Shown one piece after another: positions 28,194-36,820 of a DNA stretch of 64,000 nucleotides. The position numbers and the translations under genes are program-made. The stretch is from Aliiglaciecola sp. M165 (lineage in GTDB: Bacteria > Pseudomonadota > Gammaproteobacteria > Enterobacterales > Alteromonadaceae). Numbering within the stretch: position 1 is the stretch's first letter; every line of letters starts with the position of its first letter. The stretch spans positions 434,001 through 498,000 of the forward strand of contig NZ_VKKH01000002.1 of assembly GCF_007197995.1 (NCBI RefSeq), read 5' to 3'. The notes below the pieces were generated by a model. That model saw nothing but the letters and a program-made list of their open reading frames with translations. It searched no databases and was not told the DNA's origin.

Positions 28194-29309
28194 CTAATCT
28201 GCATCCGCTGTTACGCCTGCACCTTCACCTTGAATTAAAGTTTGTTGATAGTAGCTTGACGGCTTATCTCCCACGCTTGCCCCACCGTGAATCATACCTT
28301 GTATGGCGGGTGTGAAAAACGAATAAGGGTTTTTCACTTCTGGAGCACTGGCCTTGTTTAGACCTTCCATTAAGTCTTTCGGGATCTCAAAATCAAGTGA
28401 GGAAAGATTGTCTTGTAATTGTGTGACTTTTGTTGCGCCAATTAGCACCGATGAAACGCCAGGTTGATTAGCCACCCAATTGAGCGCAACTTGGGCCATT
28501 GATCGCCCTAGGTGATCCGCCACGCGTTCCAATTCGGCTACTATTTTAAAGTTACGGTCTGAAAATTTCTCAAATGCTGGATTACCCGATCCAGCAACTG
28601 TTGCTAAACGACCTTCACCTTTAACTTCATTATTTGACGGTTTGTATTTACCCGACAACAGCCCACTAGCCAATGGAGACCATGCCATCAGGCTAGTTCC
28701 CAAGCGCTGAGCCATAGGCACAAATTCGTGTTCTATGTTTCTTTCAACTAAAGAATACTCCAATTGCGCTGTGGCTAAGGGTTCTAATCCTCGTTCTGTC
28801 GCTAAAGTCTGCAATTGAGCGATGTACCAAGCGGGTGCATCAGAAATACCGACATGGCGAACTTTACCTGAACGAACCAGATCATCGAATGTTCGAATAA
28901 CCTCTTCCGCTGGCGTGACCTTGTCCCAAGTGTGCAACATATAAAGGTCAATATAGTCGGTATCAAGTCTCTTCAATGAACCTTCAAGTGCGCGGATAAT
29001 GTTTTTGCGGCCATTTCCTCCAGCATTAACATTTCCAGGCTCTGTGTTATAGCTAAACTTCGTCGTTAGCACAACATTATCCCGTGTACCGGTTTCCTTT
29101 ATGAATTTTCCTAGCAATTTTTCACTGTTTCCTCCGGTATACAAATCGGCTGTGTCGATAAAATTCCCGCCGGCTTGCATAAACATATCAAAAAGTGCTC
29201 TGGAGTTTTTTTCATCCGCACCCCAGCCCCAGTCATCACCGAATGTCATGGTGCCCAAAGCTAAGCGTGATACTTTTAAACCTGTTTTTCCGAGTGTGAA
29301 ATAATCCAT
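28194..29309 (-). CDS. Aldo/keto reductase
   Basis: A 371-residue NADPH-dependent oxidoreductase with a TIM-barrel. The catalytic tetrad is visible: Asp52 and Tyr57 in FIDTADLYTGG, Lys84 in LTTKFSY and His126 in LYMLHTWD. The start LGKTGLKVSRLALGTMTFG is typical, and the NADP-binding end is GVSSVLIGATKVTQLQDNL. About 40 C-terminal residues (GMIHGGASVGDKPSSYYQQ...) exceed the common length. It reduces an aldehyde or ketone that cannot be named. Upstream at 29393-29416 lies the first copy of the shared 24-bp regulon site. It is a single-gene unit with its own terminator. Confidence 0.92.
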   Translation of the reverse strand: MDYFTLGKTGLKVSRLALGTMTFGDDWGWGADEKNSRALFDMFMQAGGNFIDTADLYTGGNSEKLLGKFIKETGTRDNVVLTTKFSYNTEPGNVNAGGNGRKNIIRALEGSLKRLDTDYIDLYMLHTWDKVTPAEEVIRTFDDLVRSGKVRHVGISDAPAWYIAQLQTLATERGLEPLATAQLEYSLVERNIEHEFVPMAQRLGTSLMAWSPLASGLLSGKYKPSNNEVKGEGRLATVAGSGNPAFEKFSDRNFKIVAELERVADHLGRSMAQVALNWVANQPGVSSVLIGATKVTQLQDNLSSLDFEIPKDLMEGLNKASAPEVKNPYSFFTPAIQGMIHGGASVGDKPSSYYQQTLIQGEGAGVTADAD

Positions 29310-29392
29310 CGTTGATTCCTCTTTTTCATCAGTTAAGTAATTTGAAAGCCTGATCAGTTTATTGAAACAGCATCGACAAAAATTGAAGTAGA

Positions 29393-29416
29393 CTGCTTAT
29401 TTATTGAAGAATTCTG
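29393..29416. promoter_or_regulatory. Conserved 24-bp regulon site, copy 1
   Basis: The sequence CTGCTTATTTATTGAAGAATTCTG minus its last four bases is 20 nt identical to copy 3; the whole 24-bp core is identical. It is 84 nt upstream of the aldo/keto reductase start codon. It is probably the binding site of the AraC regulator encoded at 32511. Direct half-sites lie 21 bp apart, as expected for AraC proteins (the distal half here is degenerate, TCAG). Confidence 0.7.
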
Positions 29417-29453
29417 ATATTTGTTATTAACTGCAACAATGGGTGTAGAGTAT

Positions 29454-29494
29454 GAAATAAAAGAGCCTTGTTAATAACAAGGCTCTTTTATTTC
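29454..29494. terminator. Bidirectional terminator
   Basis: A perfect 19-bp stem (29454-29472 with 29476-29494) with a 3-nt loop AAT and A- and T-rich ends (AAAAGAGCC...GGCTCTTTT). It lies 34 nt after the stop of the NTF2-like gene at 29529, which it terminates on the minus strand. It also insulates the aldo/keto reductase promoter. Confidence 0.92.
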
Positions 29495-29528
29495 AAAGTG
29501 TTGATAATTGAGTTATCAATGAGTTTGA

Positions 29529-30410
29529 CTAACTATATTCGCGGATCATTTTGACCTTGTCGTTTTCCAAATGGATAAGAGCGACAAAACAATTTGCAGC
29601 CTTTTTTTCTAAGTGACTTTCCTCTAATTTAGATCTGGTCTCAATCAAAATTAAGTTTGGGTCTTTCATGGTATAAATCATTCGATTCTTACCCACATTG
29701 CGAGCATTCCTCATATAATCAATGGTGATTTTAGTCTTACCTATCTTCTTGTTAATCGTTGCCAAATGAGTCGACTCAAAAATTGCGCCATCATCGGATA
29801 GCAAACCTGCAATGGAAGCTGGATGTTGGTCTTCAATTGCTTCAACAAATTTTGAAACGGTTTTTTGGCTATTGTGTCGAATTAAATAATTGGGTGGGTT
29901 TTGCTTTGCATTTTCAACCGCAACTGCAAAAACGTCTCGAGTACCGCTTTCTTCCAACAATTCAAACTTGTGTGCTGTGATCAGCCAGATTGCTGCATCT
30001 TTGACAAAACGATAGGTATATTTGCCACGAACTTGCCAGAATAAAGAACCAACATAGTGATCGGCTACGACAGACGCGGTTGCTGTTGCGGTAACACCAT
30101 TTGCACTCACTTTTATGTCACTGATCTCGTGGCGTGTTACGTCAAAACCAGGCAAAACACTTGCCCATTGGGTCATTAGCGCGCGGGGGCTTTTTAATTC
30201 AATGTCGCCACCTGATAAAGACCTGTAGTCCACCTGTATTTCTGGGGCATATAACTTCTCTAGTGACTCGTAGTTGTTAGTGTCTGCAAGGGTGCCGACA
30301 CTCTCAACAATCGTTTTAATTTGTGCTTCATCTTTGACATTTGCAAAGGCAAAATGTGGATTTAAAACAAGCATAACCATTACAAGTACTCCTTTAATAA
30401 TAAGATTCAT
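29529..30410 (-). CDS. Exported protein with two NTF2/SnoaL-like domains
   Basis: A 293-residue protein with a signal peptide (MNLIIKGVLVMVMLVLNPHFAFA). Residues ~27-160 form a SnoaL-like NTF2 fold: IKTIVESVGTLADTNNYESLEKLYAPEIQVDYRSL, then ADHYVGSLFWQVRGKYTYRFVKDAAIWLITAHKFELL. A second, divergent NTF2-like domain spans ~175-293 (VSKFVEAIEDQHPASIAGLLSDDGAIFEST). These folds host small-molecule enzymes or binding proteins; no catalytic residues can be assigned. It lies 9 bp after the alpha/beta hydrolase gene, so both share one promoter and one regulon site (copy 2). The first domain resembles the separate protein encoded at 31682. Confidence 0.8.
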   Translation of the reverse strand: MNLIIKGVLVMVMLVLNPHFAFANVKDEAQIKTIVESVGTLADTNNYESLEKLYAPEIQVDYRSLSGGDIELKSPRALMTQWASVLPGFDVTRHEISDIKVSANGVTATATASVVADHYVGSLFWQVRGKYTYRFVKDAAIWLITAHKFELLEESGTRDVFAVAVENAKQNPPNYLIRHNSQKTVSKFVEAIEDQHPASIAGLLSDDGAIFESTHLATINKKIGKTKITIDYMRNARNVGKNRMIYTMKDPNLILIETRSKLEESHLEKKAANCFVALIHLENDKVKMIREYS

Positions 30411-30419
30411 CGTCTTGGC

Positions 30420-31379
30420 CTATTTGAATGAAGATTGAAAATGTACATGCAACTTATCAATAGCAGTTTGCATTGCTTCGGGTTCATCGTAGAAATCAAA
30501 TTGAGTGACATTTTCTAACATCACAAGGGATACATTGTCTCCCGCGTTTTGTGCAAATTTCTTTGCGCCCTGAGGAATGGCTGCTGCTTCTGAATGAACC
30601 ATTAAAAGGGGGTCATTAAGACTGGACGCAGTCTGTATTGCGTCATAGGTTAACCAAGGCTCCCAAGACAATGTGCTAAATTTATTGTCGTACTCATTGA
30701 TGGCACCCCTTGAAGGGTCGGTATAGTAACTCGCTTGATACATAACAGCATTTTGGTTTGTGTCGCTGGCTGCCTCTAAAATAACGGGAGCGTCTTGAGC
30801 TTTCGCGTTGGCCGTTGCGCTCAGCAGCAAAGGTACATTGTCACCATAGACTTGATCAACGATATCGCTATCGTGTAACCATGGAGCTACCACGGCAACG
30901 CTACTAATTTCCGGACTCAAGTGAGCCGCGTCAATGGCATACCCAGCTGAAGCACAAATTCCTAATGTGGCTAGCTGATGCTCATTGACTTCAGGACGAG
31001 ATTGGAGAAATTCTGCAGCAGCGAGGATATCCTGGGTTTTTTCATAAGGGTCCTCAACGAAGGTTAACGATTGTGGCGTTCCCTGGGCTGATTCGCCCCA
31101 TCCGCGGAAGTCAAAGGCGAGTGCAGCATATCCCTTGTCGGCAATTTTTTCAGCGTAAGCCCCGGCCATTTGCTCTTTTACCGATGTCCAAGAACCAGAG
31201 ACTATGATGCTGGGTAACTTCTGGCCCGATGCATAGTCGTCCGGTAAATATAAATCTCCCACGAGTGTTTGACCGTTACTTTGAAAGGTTACTGTTTGCT
31301 TGGACGCAGCCTGCAACTGGCCTGCAATAGACAGTGAAATTAAGCTAGCGATTGCAGTAGTTCTAATGAGTTGTTTCAT
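30420..31379 (-). CDS. Exported alpha/beta hydrolase (dienelactone-hydrolase/YcjY type)
   Basis: A 319-residue protein with a signal peptide (cleavage near AGQLQA, residues 20-24). The alpha/beta core has LPSIIVSGSWTSVKEQ, AALAFDFRGWGES and the nucleophile elbow LGICASAGYAID, where Cys142 is the dienelactone-hydrolase-type nucleophile (Ser144 follows). The usual catalytic His in the C-terminal TH-x-D-x-Y-D motif is Gln293 here (VTQFDFYDEPE), so normal hydrolysis may be impaired. It is the first gene of a two-gene operon with the NTF2-like protein and carries regulon site copy 2 at 31464-31487. It ends in a phenylalanine-lysine tail (FQSSFK) without a domain beyond. Confidence 0.85.
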   Translation of the reverse strand: MKQLIRTTAIASLISLSIAGQLQAASKQTVTFQSNGQTLVGDLYLPDDYASGQKLPSIIVSGSWTSVKEQMAGAYAEKIADKGYAALAFDFRGWGESAQGTPQSLTFVEDPYEKTQDILAAAEFLQSRPEVNEHQLATLGICASAGYAIDAAHLSPEISSVAVVAPWLHDSDIVDQVYGDNVPLLLSATANAKAQDAPVILEAASDTNQNAVMYQASYYTDPSRGAINEYDNKFSTLSWEPWLTYDAIQTASSLNDPLLMVHSEAAAIPQGAKKFAQNAGDNVSLVMLENVTQFDFYDEPEAMQTAIDKLHVHFQSSFK

Positions 31380-31463
31380 TTGATATATCCTCAGATTTTC
31401 GTAGTTGAACGTTGTTGACGAGAATAAGGTTACTCAGATCACGACTCAGGCGATTGTTGCTAC

Positions 31464-31487
31464 CTGCTTATTTTTTGAAGAATTCTG
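31464..31487. promoter_or_regulatory. Conserved 24-bp regulon site, copy 2
   Basis: One mismatch to copies 1 and 3 (TTATTTTTTG for TTATTTATTG). It is 85 nt upstream of the alpha/beta hydrolase start codon. On the minus strand the half-site AGCAG occurs twice, 21 bp apart. Flanking bases (GCTAC before and CT after the core) match copy 3. Confidence 0.75.
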
Positions 31488-31611
31488 CTTTGCGATTTTT
31501 GTGTGCAAATAGAAAATGCTGCGGACGAAAATTAGCGGAAATTAATAGTAGTATTGGCAAGCTTTGAAAGTGTGAATTTGGAATGGTCACGAAATATACA
31601 ACGCAGATATT

Positions 31612-31651
31612 AAAAAACCTGCTGATAAACGGTGTTACCAGCAGGTTTTTT
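31612..31651. terminator. Bidirectional terminator of the NTF2-like gene
   Basis: AAAAAACCTGCTG (31612-31624) pairs perfectly with CAGCAGGTTTTTT (31639-31651) across 14 nt. It is 31 nt after the stop of the NTF2-like gene at 31682 on the minus strand and has T runs on both strands. Confidence 0.9.
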
Positions 31652-31681
31652 GGGGTTCAAATGTGTTGGGATGATTACCGA

Positions 31682-32257
31682 TCAAGACTCTGGTACTGTA
31701 TTGCGGACAAAAGCATTACCGCGCTCAGCGACCATATTGAAAGTCATCGCTGAAATTTTCCATCCATCTGCTGTTTTCACAAACTTGTGCTCATAGTTAC
31801 CCCAAACTTCCCATAGCGCATCACCTCCATTCTCAGGCAAAGCACCTTCTTCCATTCTATTCCAAGCATATCCACTGCTAGTCATCGTAGCGTTATGTGA
31901 ATCCCTAAACAGCACGGAATGATTGCTGCGCATATGAAACGATAATTTTGACGCTTTCAAGTTATTTGACCATCCTTGAATGAGGCCATCTGCAGGAATA
32001 CTTGAAGGTTTTCCACCCACAAGCGAACTAAAATCCACCTCTATTTGCTCAGTAAATAGTTCTCTAGCAGCCTTCCAATCTTTTCTGTCAACCGCAGTAT
32101 CCAGTGAATCTGCAATGCGAATCAGCTCCTGCACTGTTACACTGTTTTCAATTGTAATTTGGGTACCTTGAATGACCTTTTGTTGCGCATGGCTTAATGG
32201 TAAAGCCCCAATGGTAACGACCAATAGTAAAGCCAAAGTTGCCGTAAAAACTTTCAT
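31682..32257 (-). CDS. Exported NTF2/SnoaL-like protein
   Basis: A 191-residue protein with a signal peptide (MKVFTATLALLLVVTIGALPLSHA). One NTF2-like domain follows: VQELIRIADSLDTAVDRKDWKAARELFTEQIEVDFSSLVGG, then ALWEVWGNYEHKFVKTADGWKISAMTFNMVAERG. Its layout (ADSLDTAVDRKDW...EVDFSSL...) parallels the first domain of the protein at 29529, so the two are probably paralogues within the same regulon. Function unknown. It is divergent from the AraC gene at 32511, and site copy 3 lies between them. Confidence 0.82.
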   Translation of the reverse strand: MKVFTATLALLLVVTIGALPLSHAQQKVIQGTQITIENSVTVQELIRIADSLDTAVDRKDWKAARELFTEQIEVDFSSLVGGKPSSIPADGLIQGWSNNLKASKLSFHMRSNHSVLFRDSHNATMTSSGYAWNRMEEGALPENGGDALWEVWGNYEHKFVKTADGWKISAMTFNMVAERGNAFVRNTVPES

Positions 32258-32347
32258 GTTAGTTCTCCTCTAAATATAGTTTAGCGGTTAGCGTTTTGAT
32301 AACGGTTTTCAGTTTAGATAACTGCTAGCTACTTTGTTTGTCGCTAC

Positions 32348-32371
32348 CTGCTTATTTATTGAAGAATTCTG
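32348..32371. promoter_or_regulatory. Conserved 24-bp regulon site, copy 3
   Basis: Core identical to copy 1. It is 91 nt upstream of the NTF2-like start codon and 140 nt upstream of the divergent AraC gene. On the minus strand AGCAG recurs with 21-bp spacing (AGCAGAATTCTTC ... AAGCAGGTAGC), the classical spacing of AraC-family direct half-sites. Confidence 0.75.
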
Positions 32372-32510
32372 CTAAACGTATTTTTTAGCTGAAACCGCAC
32401 GAATATGTGCCCCAAAAAAGTATATTACGTGATTAGAAACCAGTAACATTGAGCATGTTTTTCAGCCTCTGATTAGTTAATGTGAATGACGAGCATAGGA
32501 AACCTTTGAC

Positions 32511-33398
32511 GTGACAAAAAAGTATCAAGAGGTATATCCAGAGCCACCTTTGGTCAATAGCCAAGAACTTCTAAATGCGACAGCGACTGAACTTTTACAT
32601 CTAGAGTTTTTTGAAGCTGAGCCCGGAGAAATGCCAAGCGAAGTATTTTCCCAGCATCATATTCTTGTGAACCTAAAAGAGGAAAACACACGCGTAGAAA
32701 ACTGGCGCGATGGGGAACACCGAGATTTTATTTTTCATAAAAATGAAATCGTAGTTACTCCGGCAGGGATACGTTCTGGATGGAAATGGCACGAGAAATC
32801 CAAAGTCATTGTAATCACTCTGGAACCCGCAAAACTGGAAAAATTTGCGACATCGGAAGTAGGTATATTGTTAAACAAGGTGCAACTGAAAAGTATTCCC
32901 CAATTTATTGACGATGATATTACTCAAGCAGCGATACTATTAATGGAAGCGCTACACAGTAAAATTGGTTCTGCAGTAATGTTCGAAAGTTTCACCCGTA
33001 TTTTCCTTGTAAAGCTTATTCAAAAATATGGATTGGAGAGCGATGACGATATTAGTTTTAATAGCAGTTTTACGTCAAAACACTATAAGCGAGTGTTGGA
33101 TTATATCGCGCAGAACTTTGGATCAGATGTCAATGTCGAAGATTTGGCAACTCAAGCCGGTTTAAGCACCGCCCATTTTGCACGTTTGTTCAAACAGACC
33201 ATTGGCCATACACCACATCAATTTGTCATGGCATATCGCATTGAACAATCTAAAAAAATGTTATCCGACATAGAGCGTCCAAAAATTGATATAGCACTAT
33301 CCTGCGGCTTTTCTGATCAAGCGCATTTTTCCCGTGTGTTTAAGCAAATAATCGGGATCACGCCTAAAGAGTACCGAATGTCTATATTGAAGAATTAG
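32511..33398 (+). CDS. AraC-family regulator, likely controls the 28-32 kb regulon
   Basis: A 295-residue regulator. The N-terminal ~150 residues contain a cupin-like sensor (FIFHKNEIVVTPAGIRSGWKWHEKSKVIVITLEP). The C-terminal double HTH spans ~190-290: VNVEDLATQAGLSTAHFARLFKQTIGHTPHQFVMAYRIEQSKKML and IDIALSCGFSDQAHFSRVFKQIIGITPKEYR. The start is a GTG with AGGA about 12 nt upstream. It is divergent from the NTF2-like gene. The three conserved sites upstream of the neighbouring units make it the best candidate for their activator. The inducer is unknown. Confidence 0.9.
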   Translation: MTKKYQEVYPEPPLVNSQELLNATATELLHLEFFEAEPGEMPSEVFSQHHILVNLKEENTRVENWRDGEHRDFIFHKNEIVVTPAGIRSGWKWHEKSKVIVITLEPAKLEKFATSEVGILLNKVQLKSIPQFIDDDITQAAILLMEALHSKIGSAVMFESFTRIFLVKLIQKYGLESDDDISFNSSFTSKHYKRVLDYIAQNFGSDVNVEDLATQAGLSTAHFARLFKQTIGHTPHQFVMAYRIEQSKKMLSDIERPKIDIALSCGFSDQAHFSRVFKQIIGITPKEYRMSILKN

Positions 33399-33544: not shown

Positions 33545-36500
33545 CTAATCGATTTCAACTGGCTCTTCAGACTTTTCTTTCATCAATCCTGCAGGCATCC
33601 AAGGGGCTCCAGCTTCAAGTAACGATTGTTTAAAAGCAGGAAATTCAGTTTGCTGCAAATTGTTCAACTGTGGCAACAGAACGTTAAGGGCATCTTGTAC
33701 AAACACCATTTGCTCTTTCTGCGTTGACGTTAGTCCCCATGTATTGGCACGGGCAAATTCGATCATAAACAAACGGCTAGAAACCGTAGCAGGTGAGGTC
33801 CCCATGCCGTCTCTTGAGCGCTGTCCGTCCAGTGTCTCCTGTGCGGCAAAAACGGCAGTGCGCAGTTGATGATAGGTCTGTTCTAAATTACCAGCTACCG
33901 CTGATGAACGATCAAGTGCCATTCTAAAGGATTTGAGTTGGGCTTTAAGATCGCCTATCTGGCCGCTCGCCATTGATACTTGACGTCTAAGATTTTCAAC
34001 TTCAAGTAATAATGCTGAGCGCTGCTGCGGTGACACGCCACCGGGAACAGTTTCTGTATGAAGTGGTTTAACCTTGAAGCTTACGGAGTCAGTGAGTTCA
34101 GATGTTTTTCCATTTACGGTAGCATACAACGAAGCACTGTACTCACCCGGTGCGACTAAAGGCCCAGTATCACCAAAGAAGCTAGAGGAAGTTCCCAGCG
34201 CGTTTGCAGACGGCATGCGCAAATCCCAGGTGACACGATGAAGTCCTTTTTCAACTTTTGAGTCAACTTTACGAATCACCCGCCCTTGAGCATTTTTGAT
34301 GAGTACATAAACTTCGGGTTCAGCTTCTCTTAACTCTTCTTCAACTCTATCCCACGAAGGATAAAGGGGGTATTTGTCCTTTTCTATATCCTTCTTTTCT
34401 TGCTCTTCTCGTTGTTTAGACAATGATTTAACGCCATCACGCAGATAATAGGTAAAGGTAGCGCCAAAATCTGGATTTTCAGCGCGATACTCAAAATCAC
34501 CGTGTGAATCTGTATGCAAACTTTCGGGGATATACCAAAGTGCATCGCGAGGCGTAAAGAGCAACGCTTCTTTTTGCAAGTTGTCTTTGTTTATTGAACG
34601 CAGTGGTGTGTAGTCATCCAATATATAAATACCGCGACCAAAACTACCTGCTACAAGGTCATTTTCTCTACGCTGAATTTGCACGTCACGAAATGAAATT
34701 GTGGGTACTCCGCCATTGAGCTCAGTCCATTGTTGACCGCCATCAACGGTGAAAAACAAACCAAACTCGGTGCCTACAAAGAGTAAGTTTTTATTCACAT
34801 GGTCTTGAACAATGCGCCACACTAGGTGCTTGTCTGGCAAGTTGGACGCAATAGATTTCCATGATTTGCCACGGTTAGTACTCTTAATTAGATAAGGTTT
34901 ATAGTCACCATACTTGTGATTGTCTAACGCTGCGTAGACCGTGTCTTTATCAAACAGATCGGCACGAATATCGTTTACGTAGGCGGTTTCAGGGATACCT
35001 CGAATTTTGCCAATGCTATAGCGTTTCCAATCTTGCCCGCCATTGGAAGTGACTTGAATGAGCCCGTCATCGGTTCCCGCATACAGAATATTCTCGTCCA
35101 GTGGTGATTCTGCAATATTGGCGATGGTATTAAAATTAGACATCGCGAGTAGGTCAAAACCGGAATTCACAGACCATGTGCGGTCCATCACGGGCATATG
35201 CATTCTGTTTTCATTTTTAGTTAAATCACCGGAGATTGCCTGCCAACTATTTCCTCGATCATCAGAGCGCCATACTCTTTGTGATGCATGATAAATACGC
35301 TTAGGGTCATGACTAGAAACTAAAATGGGTGCATCCCAATTGTATCGCTCACCAGGTTCGCCTGGCTTCGCTTGAGGTTGAATCGATACGTATTCGCCTG
35401 TCTTGCGGTGGTAACGAGCTAAATTACCCTGTTGGCGTTGACCATAAACTACATCTGGGTTACCGGGCTCGGTGGCAGGTTGGTGACCATCCCAGTCAAG
35501 GATCAAAAACCAATCATTATTTTTTATACCATGAGCTTTAGTGGTTCGAGATGGTCCACCTTGTGAGGAATTGTCTTGCGTGCCGCCATAAACGTAATAA
35601 AAAGGTTTGCTATCATCAACGGCTATTTTGTAGAACTGAGTAATGGGCATGTTAGAGATAAAACGCCATTTTTCCATGCCATCTTGCGTCTCGTAAACCC
35701 CACCATCGCTGCCTATTAACAGAAAATCCTTATCCGTAGGGTGAAAAGCCATTGCATGGTCATCGACATGTTTGTATTTAACGTTAACCGGGGTCCAGGT
35801 TTTGCCGCCATCATCACTGTATTTACTATAGTTGCTCGCCATATAAATTCGGTCGAAGCGGTGAGGGTCGGCAAAAATTTCTTGGTAGTAATGTGGGCCA
35901 GTGCCACCGCCCACTTCGTCAGACATCTTTGTCCAACTGGCTCCTTGGTTCGCGGAGCGATAAAGGCCACCTTTACGTTGGTTTAGCTCGATTCCAGCAT
36001 AAACAACATCAGGGTTGATGTGGGAAATCGCCAAACCAATTTTACCCATATCTGTTTTGGGTAAGCCTTCAGTTAGTTTCAGCCATGTATTACCACCATC
36101 ATCACTTGTGTGAATGGCTGAGCCTGGGCCCGTGCCAACATAGGCAGGTAGTGTTCTTTGCCGTTGCCAAGTAGCAGCATAAAGTTTATCTGGGTTACGA
36201 GGGTCAATAACGAGAGAAGTCACCCCAGTCCACTGATCAGTTTCTAACACGTTCTCCCAGGTGTTACCGCCATCCGTTGTTTTAAATAATCCCCGCTGTC
36301 CTCCTTTAGACCACAACGGACCTTGAGAAGAAACCCAAACGGTATTTGAATCTGTAGGGTGAACAATAATATCTGATATATGCTCTGACTGCTTCAATCC
36401 CATGTTTTTCCATGTTTCGCCACCATCAAGTGAGCGATAAACCCCGTCGCCAAAACTCAGGTGTCGACCACCGTTGTTTTCCCCGGTGCCGACCCAAATA

Positions 36501-36820
36501 ATATTGGAGTTGCTAGGATCAATGGTTACATCACCCGTAGAAAAAACGGCTTGTTTATCAAAAATCGGCTTCCATGTAATACCACCATTTTCGGTTTTCC
36601 ATACACCACCAGAACCTACTGCTACGTACCAGATAGAAGGATCTTTCCGATCAATCTCAATGTCCGCAATGCGCCCCGACATGTAGGCTGGACCAATATT
36701 ACGAAGTGTCATCCCAGATAAGAGTTCGTCGGTCATTAAACCAGTTTGGTCTTTTTTGGCAGCTTGTAGTGGCAGGGAAGCTAGCGTTACTAGTAAAACA
36801 ACGGTAGTAAGCAGTTTCAT
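33545..36820 (-). CDS. Secreted VPS10/sortilin-type BNR beta-propeller protein
   Basis: A 1,091-residue exported protein with a signal peptide (MKLLTTVVLLVTLASLPLQAA). Residues ~40-750 hold about ten BNR/VPS10-type blades with the recurring core S-x-D-x-G-x-T-W (for example YRSLDGGETW, FKTTDGGNTW, HTSDDGGNTW, YRSANQGASW, WRSDDRGNSW, IKSTNRGKSW, FFTVDGGQQW). The C-terminal ~300 residues include an Ig-like segment (LIKNAQGRVIRKVDSKVEKGLHRVTWDLRMPSANA) and a coiled coil (VENLRRQVSMASGQIGDLKAQLKSFR). Often annotated as 'glycosyl hydrolase' on BNR repeats alone; no catalytic residues support that. Single gene with its own terminator. Substrate unknown. Confidence 0.85.
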   Translation of the reverse strand: MKLLTTVVLLVTLASLPLQAAKKDQTGLMTDELLSGMTLRNIGPAYMSGRIADIEIDRKDPSIWYVAVGSGGVWKTENGGITWKPIFDKQAVFSTGDVTIDPSNSNIIWVGTGENNGGRHLSFGDGVYRSLDGGETWKNMGLKQSEHISDIIVHPTDSNTVWVSSQGPLWSKGGQRGLFKTTDGGNTWENVLETDQWTGVTSLVIDPRNPDKLYAATWQRQRTLPAYVGTGPGSAIHTSDDGGNTWLKLTEGLPKTDMGKIGLAISHINPDVVYAGIELNQRKGGLYRSANQGASWTKMSDEVGGGTGPHYYQEIFADPHRFDRIYMASNYSKYSDDGGKTWTPVNVKYKHVDDHAMAFHPTDKDFLLIGSDGGVYETQDGMEKWRFISNMPITQFYKIAVDDSKPFYYVYGGTQDNSSQGGPSRTTKAHGIKNNDWFLILDWDGHQPATEPGNPDVVYGQRQQGNLARYHRKTGEYVSIQPQAKPGEPGERYNWDAPILVSSHDPKRIYHASQRVWRSDDRGNSWQAISGDLTKNENRMHMPVMDRTWSVNSGFDLLAMSNFNTIANIAESPLDENILYAGTDDGLIQVTSNGGQDWKRYSIGKIRGIPETAYVNDIRADLFDKDTVYAALDNHKYGDYKPYLIKSTNRGKSWKSIASNLPDKHLVWRIVQDHVNKNLLFVGTEFGLFFTVDGGQQWTELNGGVPTISFRDVQIQRRENDLVAGSFGRGIYILDDYTPLRSINKDNLQKEALLFTPRDALWYIPESLHTDSHGDFEYRAENPDFGATFTYYLRDGVKSLSKQREEQEKKDIEKDKYPLYPSWDRVEEELREAEPEVYVLIKNAQGRVIRKVDSKVEKGLHRVTWDLRMPSANALGTSSSFFGDTGPLVAPGEYSASLYATVNGKTSELTDSVSFKVKPLHTETVPGGVSPQQRSALLLEVENLRRQVSMASGQIGDLKAQLKSFRMALDRSSAVAGNLEQTYHQLRTAVFAAQETLDGQRSRDGMGTSPATVSSRLFMIEFARANTWGLTSTQKEQMVFVQDALNVLLPQLNNLQQTEFPAFKQSLLEAGAPWMPAGLMKEKSEEPVEID

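Follow-up and report, generated by a model that had tools for sequence, protein, structure and literature searches.

A predicted AraC-type regulon with three near-identical operators in Aliiglaciecola sp. M165

Within a 64,000-nucleotide stretch of the Aliiglaciecola sp. M165 genome (contig NZ_VKKH01000002.1, positions 434,001 to 498,000; hereafter the window), three near-identical sites precede genes for an aldo/keto reductase, an alpha/beta hydrolase and a SnoaL-like protein, and a gene for an AraC-type protein begins nearby at 32511. We conclude that the three copies are very probably operators of this protein, which would act as a class II activator of three transcription units. A local AraC regulon had been proposed in an original prediction made from the window sequence, and our data support it: the sites are confined to this locus, each pairs direct half-sites with a 21-bp period and is followed at a fixed distance by a -10-like hexamer, and 7 of 9 loci with an orthologous regulator also have the site. 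As far as can be judged from sequence, the regulon is real and its predicted mechanism is ordinary AraC-family class II activation.

The 24-bp cores at 29393-29416, 31464-31487 and 32348-32371 are present as originally described, in the same orientation throughout. Copy 2 departs at a single base from the other two, which are identical, and the distances from core to start codon are 84, 85 and 91 when taken as coordinate differences (29393-29309, 31464-31379 and 32348-32257). Copies 2 and 3 carry AGCAG at both half-sites with a 21-bp period, again as predicted; the outer half-site of copy 1 starts with ATCAG, not AGCAG. While the 24-bp core is real, it is only part of the site, and the full operator spans 36 bp. 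The regulator, the operators with their outer (HS1) and promoter-proximal (HS2) half-sites, and the predicted promoters are as follows.

32511..33398, plus strand: gene for the AraC-type regulator, 295 amino acids, GTG start, C-terminal double helix-turn-helix (HTH; Pfam HTH_AraC, HTH_18)
29383-29418, minus strand: operator 1, 36 bp
29404..29418, minus strand: site 1 HS1, ATCAGAATTCTTCAA
29383..29397, minus strand: site 1 HS2, AGCAGTCTACTTCAA
29356..29361, minus strand: site 1 promoter, -10-like TAAACT at HS2+36
31454-31489, minus strand: operator 2, 36 bp
31475..31489, minus strand: site 2 HS1, AGCAGAATTCTTCAA
31454..31468, minus strand: site 2 HS2, AGCAGGTAGCAACAA
31427..31432, minus strand: site 2 promoter, -10-like TAACCT at HS2+36
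32338-32373, minus strand: operator 3, 36 bp
32359..32373, minus strand: site 3 outer half-site HS1, AGCAGAATTCTTCAA
32338..32352, minus strand: site 3 promoter-proximal half-site HS2, AGCAGGTAGCGACAA, 21 bp from HS1
32311..32316, minus strand: site 3 promoter, -10-like TAAACT at HS2+36

The targets are encoded on the minus strand; read along it, each promoter consists of HS1 (15 nt), 6 nt, HS2 (15 nt), 21 nt and the hexamer. The operator pattern consists of two direct half-sites, AGCAG-N5-TTCAA followed by AGCAG-N5-NNCAA, with starts 21 bp apart; this period is found in all three window sites and in 8 further sites of the same type (type A). Counted from the first base of HS2, the hexamer begins at exactly +36 nt in each of the three window copies.

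Because the three window copies are where we first noticed this +36 rule, by eye, it is fairly tested on sites from other genomes: the remaining four of the seven sites from which a scoring matrix was built, and four sites outside that set. TANNNT was found in 4/4 of the former, and TA in 4/4 of the latter, with C instead of T as the last base. Across all seven matrix sites TANNNT occurs at HS2+36 without exception; every other offset between 20 and 79 has fewer than two, and when the downstream stretches were shuffled 20,000 times, no single offset exceeded 4/7. Overall, 11 of the 12 type-A sites have TA at HS2+36, the exception being that of a Blastomonas plasmid.

In 11/11 sites, 0-3 of the 6 bases of TTGACA are matched where a -35 would lie (spacers 16-18). 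With an inner half-site by or over the -35 region, a fixed spacing to the -10 and a weak -35, the layout is that of class II activation. A consensus promoter scan listed none of the three predicted promoters, as expected of promoters that would need an activator; its 9 matches were fewer than the shuffle mean of 12.4.

The three copies are not the product of chance. All same-strand 24-mer pairs in the window with at most one mismatch (14 overlapping pairs) fall in the three sites, and Markov-simulated 64 kb sequences (n = 5) contained no such pair. Throughout the M165 genome (29 contigs, 4,609,762 bases; our genome-wide statements refer to pattern searches), the core matches three times at up to 3 mismatches, all at this locus, with 0 matches for a reversed-pattern control. 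The motif is thus not scattered over unrelated places, as the original prediction required. A looser 26-bp pattern gave one extra match (3 mismatches, contig C28), which lies within an open frame and has no -10 at the expected position. Among 60 relatives, counting M165 itself (G000), only G000, G015 and G032 match the core, the latter two once each with 3 mismatches. Six 3-mismatch matches in five genomes were rejected as chance: TANNNT was present at +36 in 0/6, five lie within an open frame and one lies between two frames.

The regulator belongs to the AraC/XylS family by its HTH region: residues 212-289 score 83.3 bits against HTH_AraC (cut-off 26.6) and 80.3 bits against HTH_18 (cut-off 33.6). 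No other Pfam domain was found in the protein, and none in its N-terminal part, which is conserved among orthologs. We used this N-terminal part for ortholog searches because the full-length regulator gave mostly HTH matches in the 60 relatives; scanning named genomes with the regulator likewise gave two relatives by HTH only. The N-terminal query matched 2 of 295 genomes of the order (M165 and G299). A three-row profile matched 4/395 of the family (M165, G385, G520 and G384), 2/321 of the class (M165 and, weakly, G756) and 1/40 genomes of the family of G299 (G299 itself), and a six-row profile matched 5/398 of the phylum (M165, G1055, G1158, G1114 and, weakly, G1236). Among 72,556 plasmid records, four matched the regulator, three from Dinoroseobacter shibae and one from Blastomonas. 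This rare and scattered occurrence suggests horizontal transfer of the regulator gene.

We examined nine further ortholog loci (G299, G385, G520, G384, D. shibae pDSHI05, G1055, G1158, G1114 and the Blastomonas plasmid), a count that leaves out G756, G1236 and two further D. shibae records. Seven of the nine have the site ahead of the same hydrolase gene and TA at +36. G299 and G385 have regulator, site, hydrolase and SnoaL-like gene in a single direction, and G520 has regulator, site and hydrolase, with TATTAT at +36. A second G299 site, on another contig (C42), has one mismatch to the IUPAC motif and precedes a SnoaL-like frame, with TATATT at +36. At G384, where the regulator frame ends at 236 amino acids, within the HTH domain, neither a hydrolase match nor a site was found at the locus.

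The matrix was built from the three window sites, the two of G299, and those of G385 and G520, and then applied to loci outside that set. At D. shibae pDSHI05 the top score was 19.9 (next -1.9), and at G1055, G1158 and G1114 it was 15.6, 33.0 and 30.1. Each of these hits lies between regulator and hydrolase and is the best over the whole 12.6-13 kb locus, compared to shuffle maxima (200 shuffles per locus) of 8.8, 9.4, 15.4 and 14.6, respectively. The hexamers at +36 are TATCTC, TATTTC, TATCTC and TATCTC in the same order.

Some of these loci also carry incomplete or interrupted genes. The truncated G384 regulator ortholog is at L071:8943-9653. On G299 C42 (L085:7451-7922), the second operator precedes a 15-codon ATG frame (MKSIQLDTQVGTLAA) resembling the hydrolase N-termini of other clusters, and behind it is a SnoaL_2 frame without its N-terminal part; this arrangement looks like a deleted hydrolase-SnoaL unit. 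Behind its conserved site, G385 has the hydrolase split over two frames, with a TGA within the match (L056:8850-9842), indicating either a pseudogene or a sequence error.

Downstream of the operators, the window contains the following genes and terminator-like hairpins.

31682..32257, minus strand: SnoaL1, SnoaL-like (NTF2-fold) protein, 191 amino acids, signal-like N-terminus (Pfam SnoaL_4)
30420..31379, minus strand: HYD, alpha/beta hydrolase, 319 amino acids, signal-like N-terminus (Pfam DLH, Peptidase_S15)
29529..30410, minus strand: SnoaL2, second SnoaL-like gene, 293 amino acids, 9 nt behind HYD (Pfam SnoaL_4)
28194..29309, minus strand: AKR, aldo/keto reductase, 371 amino acids (Pfam Aldo_ket_red, 3.2e-74)
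31612..31651, no strand: terminator-like hairpin in the gap between SnoaL1 and site 2, inverted repeat, -22.0 kcal/mol, z -5.0
29453..29495, no strand: terminator-like hairpin in the gap between SnoaL2 and site 1, perfect inverted repeat, -27.3 kcal/mol, z -9.5

The unit behind copy 2 contains the alpha/beta hydrolase, as predicted, and was extended here by a second, SnoaL-like gene. Strong hairpins before site 2 and site 1 suggest three separate transcripts. In G1158, the gene immediately following the hydrolase encodes a relative of SnoaL1 (57% identity), which links SnoaL1 to the module. Ser144 (in CASAG), His313, Asp295 and Asp298 of HYD, all putative catalytic residues, are invariant in 9/9 aligned relatives. 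AKR has a relative of solved structure in PDB 7utf (1.6e-67). At E-values up to 1e-60, AKR was found in one of 12 genomes searched, that of M165, where a 41% paralog lies on another contig; AKR therefore looks like a late recruit. The hydrolase, both SnoaL-like proteins and their relatives have N-termini that, read by eye, resemble those of exported proteins, making a periplasmic location of these products plausible. None of five proteins matched PADLOC anti-phage defence models at 0.001. In G019, a SnoaL_4 domain and an alpha/beta hydrolase are fused in one 474-amino-acid frame (L058:8790-10214), which supports joint working of the two proteins. It should also be noted that a 1091-amino-acid protein with sortilin/Vps10-type BNR repeats (33545-36820) adjoins the regulator on the opposite strand; no site precedes its gene.

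We propose that a regulator dimer (or two molecules) would occupy the two head-to-tail half-sites 21 bp apart. From the inner half-site, at the -35 position, the bound protein could recruit RNA polymerase to promoters that have a -10 and almost no -35. The regulator would in this way switch on three units jointly: SnoaL1, HYD with SnoaL2, and AKR. Its presumed signal is a small molecule related to the hydrolase substrate. The proposal of an inducible pathway for an undescribed compound is plausible, the sole basis for "undescribed" being a literature search with the terms of this gene set, which found no paper.

The same regulator might instead use these sites mainly for repression, covering the -35 region until its removal or the binding of a ligand derepresses the genes. 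An inner half-site over the -35 region is compatible with such occlusion. However, a repressor needs a self-sufficient promoter, and the -35 matches described above are poor in all 11 sites; moreover, the spacing is that of araBAD and falls within the 21-23 bp gap reported as functional for the activator AggR (PMC6392122). We consider repression as the main mode unlikely. It is less likely still that the sites belong to another DNA-binding protein and that the AraC gene is a bystander. The M165 genome does encode other AraC-type HTH proteins (18 matches), yet the site accompanies orthologs of this particular regulator in 7/9 loci of distant genomes, no site was found at G384, where the regulator frame is cut, and most of the 60 relatives lack both site and ortholog.

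Local duplication, or a small mobile repeat, could in principle leave such repeats behind without any regulatory role. Sites 2 and 3 are identical at 34/36 positions and the window has two SnoaL-like genes, so short-patch copying of an operator is conceivable. However, the flanks outside the 36 bp are unrelated among the three copies (identical positions 5-6/21 in the spacer, 11-14/40 upstream and 15-20/47 downstream) while the distance to the -10 is constant, the site is retained beside the regulator across genera and classes, and there are no further copies in the genome. Repeats devoid of function are therefore highly improbable.

Several results weigh against activation of three units by this regulator. 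The Blastomonas site is weak, with a score of 13.4 where shuffles reach up to 13.8, and it lacks TA at +36. It immediately follows the regulator and precedes a frame whose beginning, by eye, is like that of the hydrolase; the hydrolase gene there is apparently broken. The -10 hexamers of the four out-of-sample sites, TATCTC or TATTTC, match TATAAT at only 3/6 positions. Between site 3 and SnoaL1 there is a consensus promoter-like sequence, TTATCA-18-TATATT (32302-32273), that could compete with the predicted promoter. A consensus terminator scan listed neither hairpin as a whole, and for 31612..31651 it gave no more than a stem overlapping it in part. A structure model of the regulator from its single sequence is too poor (mean predicted local distance difference test score, pLDDT, 44.9) to reveal a ligand-binding domain. 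Finally, activation and repression are not separable by sequence. Even so, we favor activation by the AraC-type regulator as by far the most probable reading.

The hydrolase also occurs with other AraC-type proteins. At five further hydrolase loci (G034, G019, G410, G445 and G428; L057, L058, L060, L061 and L062), two of which (G410 and G445) have nearly the same sequence, an adjoining AraC-type protein belongs to another subfamily, with 22-26% identity to the window regulator in the four that were aligned (G445 is outside the alignment). Related half-sites 22 bp apart were recognised by eye before these five hydrolases, with TANNNT at +36 in 5/5. This suggests that the hydrolase has repeatedly come under AraC-type control. 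In L060, L061 and L062 the 24-mer also matches at 4-7 mismatches within a coding frame starting MGRAFQNRKESMAKTAG; these matches were discarded as chance. Rhizobium plasmid p4, which has an AraC gene, the hydrolase and two NTF2 genes in a row, was likewise set aside, as its AraC protein is of a different type (21%) and the locus yielded no site. On Vibrio and Aestuarium plasmids a small gene follows the hydrolase, with no AraC protein annotated in the stretch, and for the hydrolase loci of G009, G334 and G394 there was no AraC match within 19 kb and no such site recognised by eye.

More broadly, we tentatively suggest, as a possibility somewhat short of probable, that the regulator represents an unnamed AraC subfamily spread horizontally in alpha- and gammaproteobacteria. 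One conserved operator (AGCAG-N5-TTCAA twice, 21 bp apart) would govern a portable module of exported hydrolase and SnoaL-like protein for an undescribed compound, perhaps a phycosphere metabolite, and in M165 the regulon would have grown by the same operator being placed before a second SnoaL-like gene and the aldo/keto reductase. Two named carriers come from algae: D. shibae from dinoflagellates (2 of 3 records) and Blastomonas from the algal phycosphere. With a defined candidate operator and three promoters, each with a predicted -10, the inducer of the regulator could be screened for with a simple reporter. The regulon would also place the hydrolase, both SnoaL-like proteins and the aldo/keto reductase within a single response.

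Among known proteins, HYD has its best NCBIfam match by E-value to the acyl-homoserine lactonase UilS (PMC11633161), with which it shares the same broad alpha/beta hydrolase fold family. We rejected HYD as a quorum-quenching lactonase of the UilS kind, as it reaches 62 bits compared to the NF047920 equivalog cut-off of 400. By contrast, uilS is controlled by LuxR and CpxR according to PMC11633161, whose text makes no mention of AraC. The closest solved relatives of HYD by sequence are PA2218 (PDB 2hdw, 1.9e-23) and YcjY (5xb6, 1.3e-18), both deposited as hypothetical or uncharacterised.

For the regulatory region, the closest likeness is to araI1-araI2 at the Escherichia coli araBAD promoter. 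The araBAD promoter stretch is present in 5345/5426 E. coli genomes; its elements carry their usual names I1, I2 and -10. Its half-site starts are 21 bp apart and TACTGT starts 36 nt after the second half-site. Both systems thus have two direct half-sites, a -10 at +36 from the inner one and a poor -35, as well as a strong, conserved outer half-site and a looser inner one. Unlike araBAD, the window carries the site at three promoters side by side, and its regulator is no ortholog of AraC (70.5 bits against the 208 of equivalog NF007860) and has other targets. The araBAD spacing recurs here and also in five promoters where the same hydrolase is beside an AraC-type protein of quite another kind, which indicates that the layout is closely kept.

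AggR, an AraC-type activator, is reported to function with a gap of 21-23 bp between its site and the -10, and contact with sigma domain 4 over the -35 has been proposed (PMC6392122). That source indicates that AggR can act from one site, whereas two half-sites are conserved here, and its physiology is unrelated. As at the AggR promoters described there, the distance from site to -10 is fixed and the -35 is overlapped, the distance here being 21 bp from the end of HS2 to the hexamer. Taken together, the predicted regulator, operators and targets are a fresh case of the well-known AraC-type gene switch, unusually well supported for a prediction drawn from sequence only.

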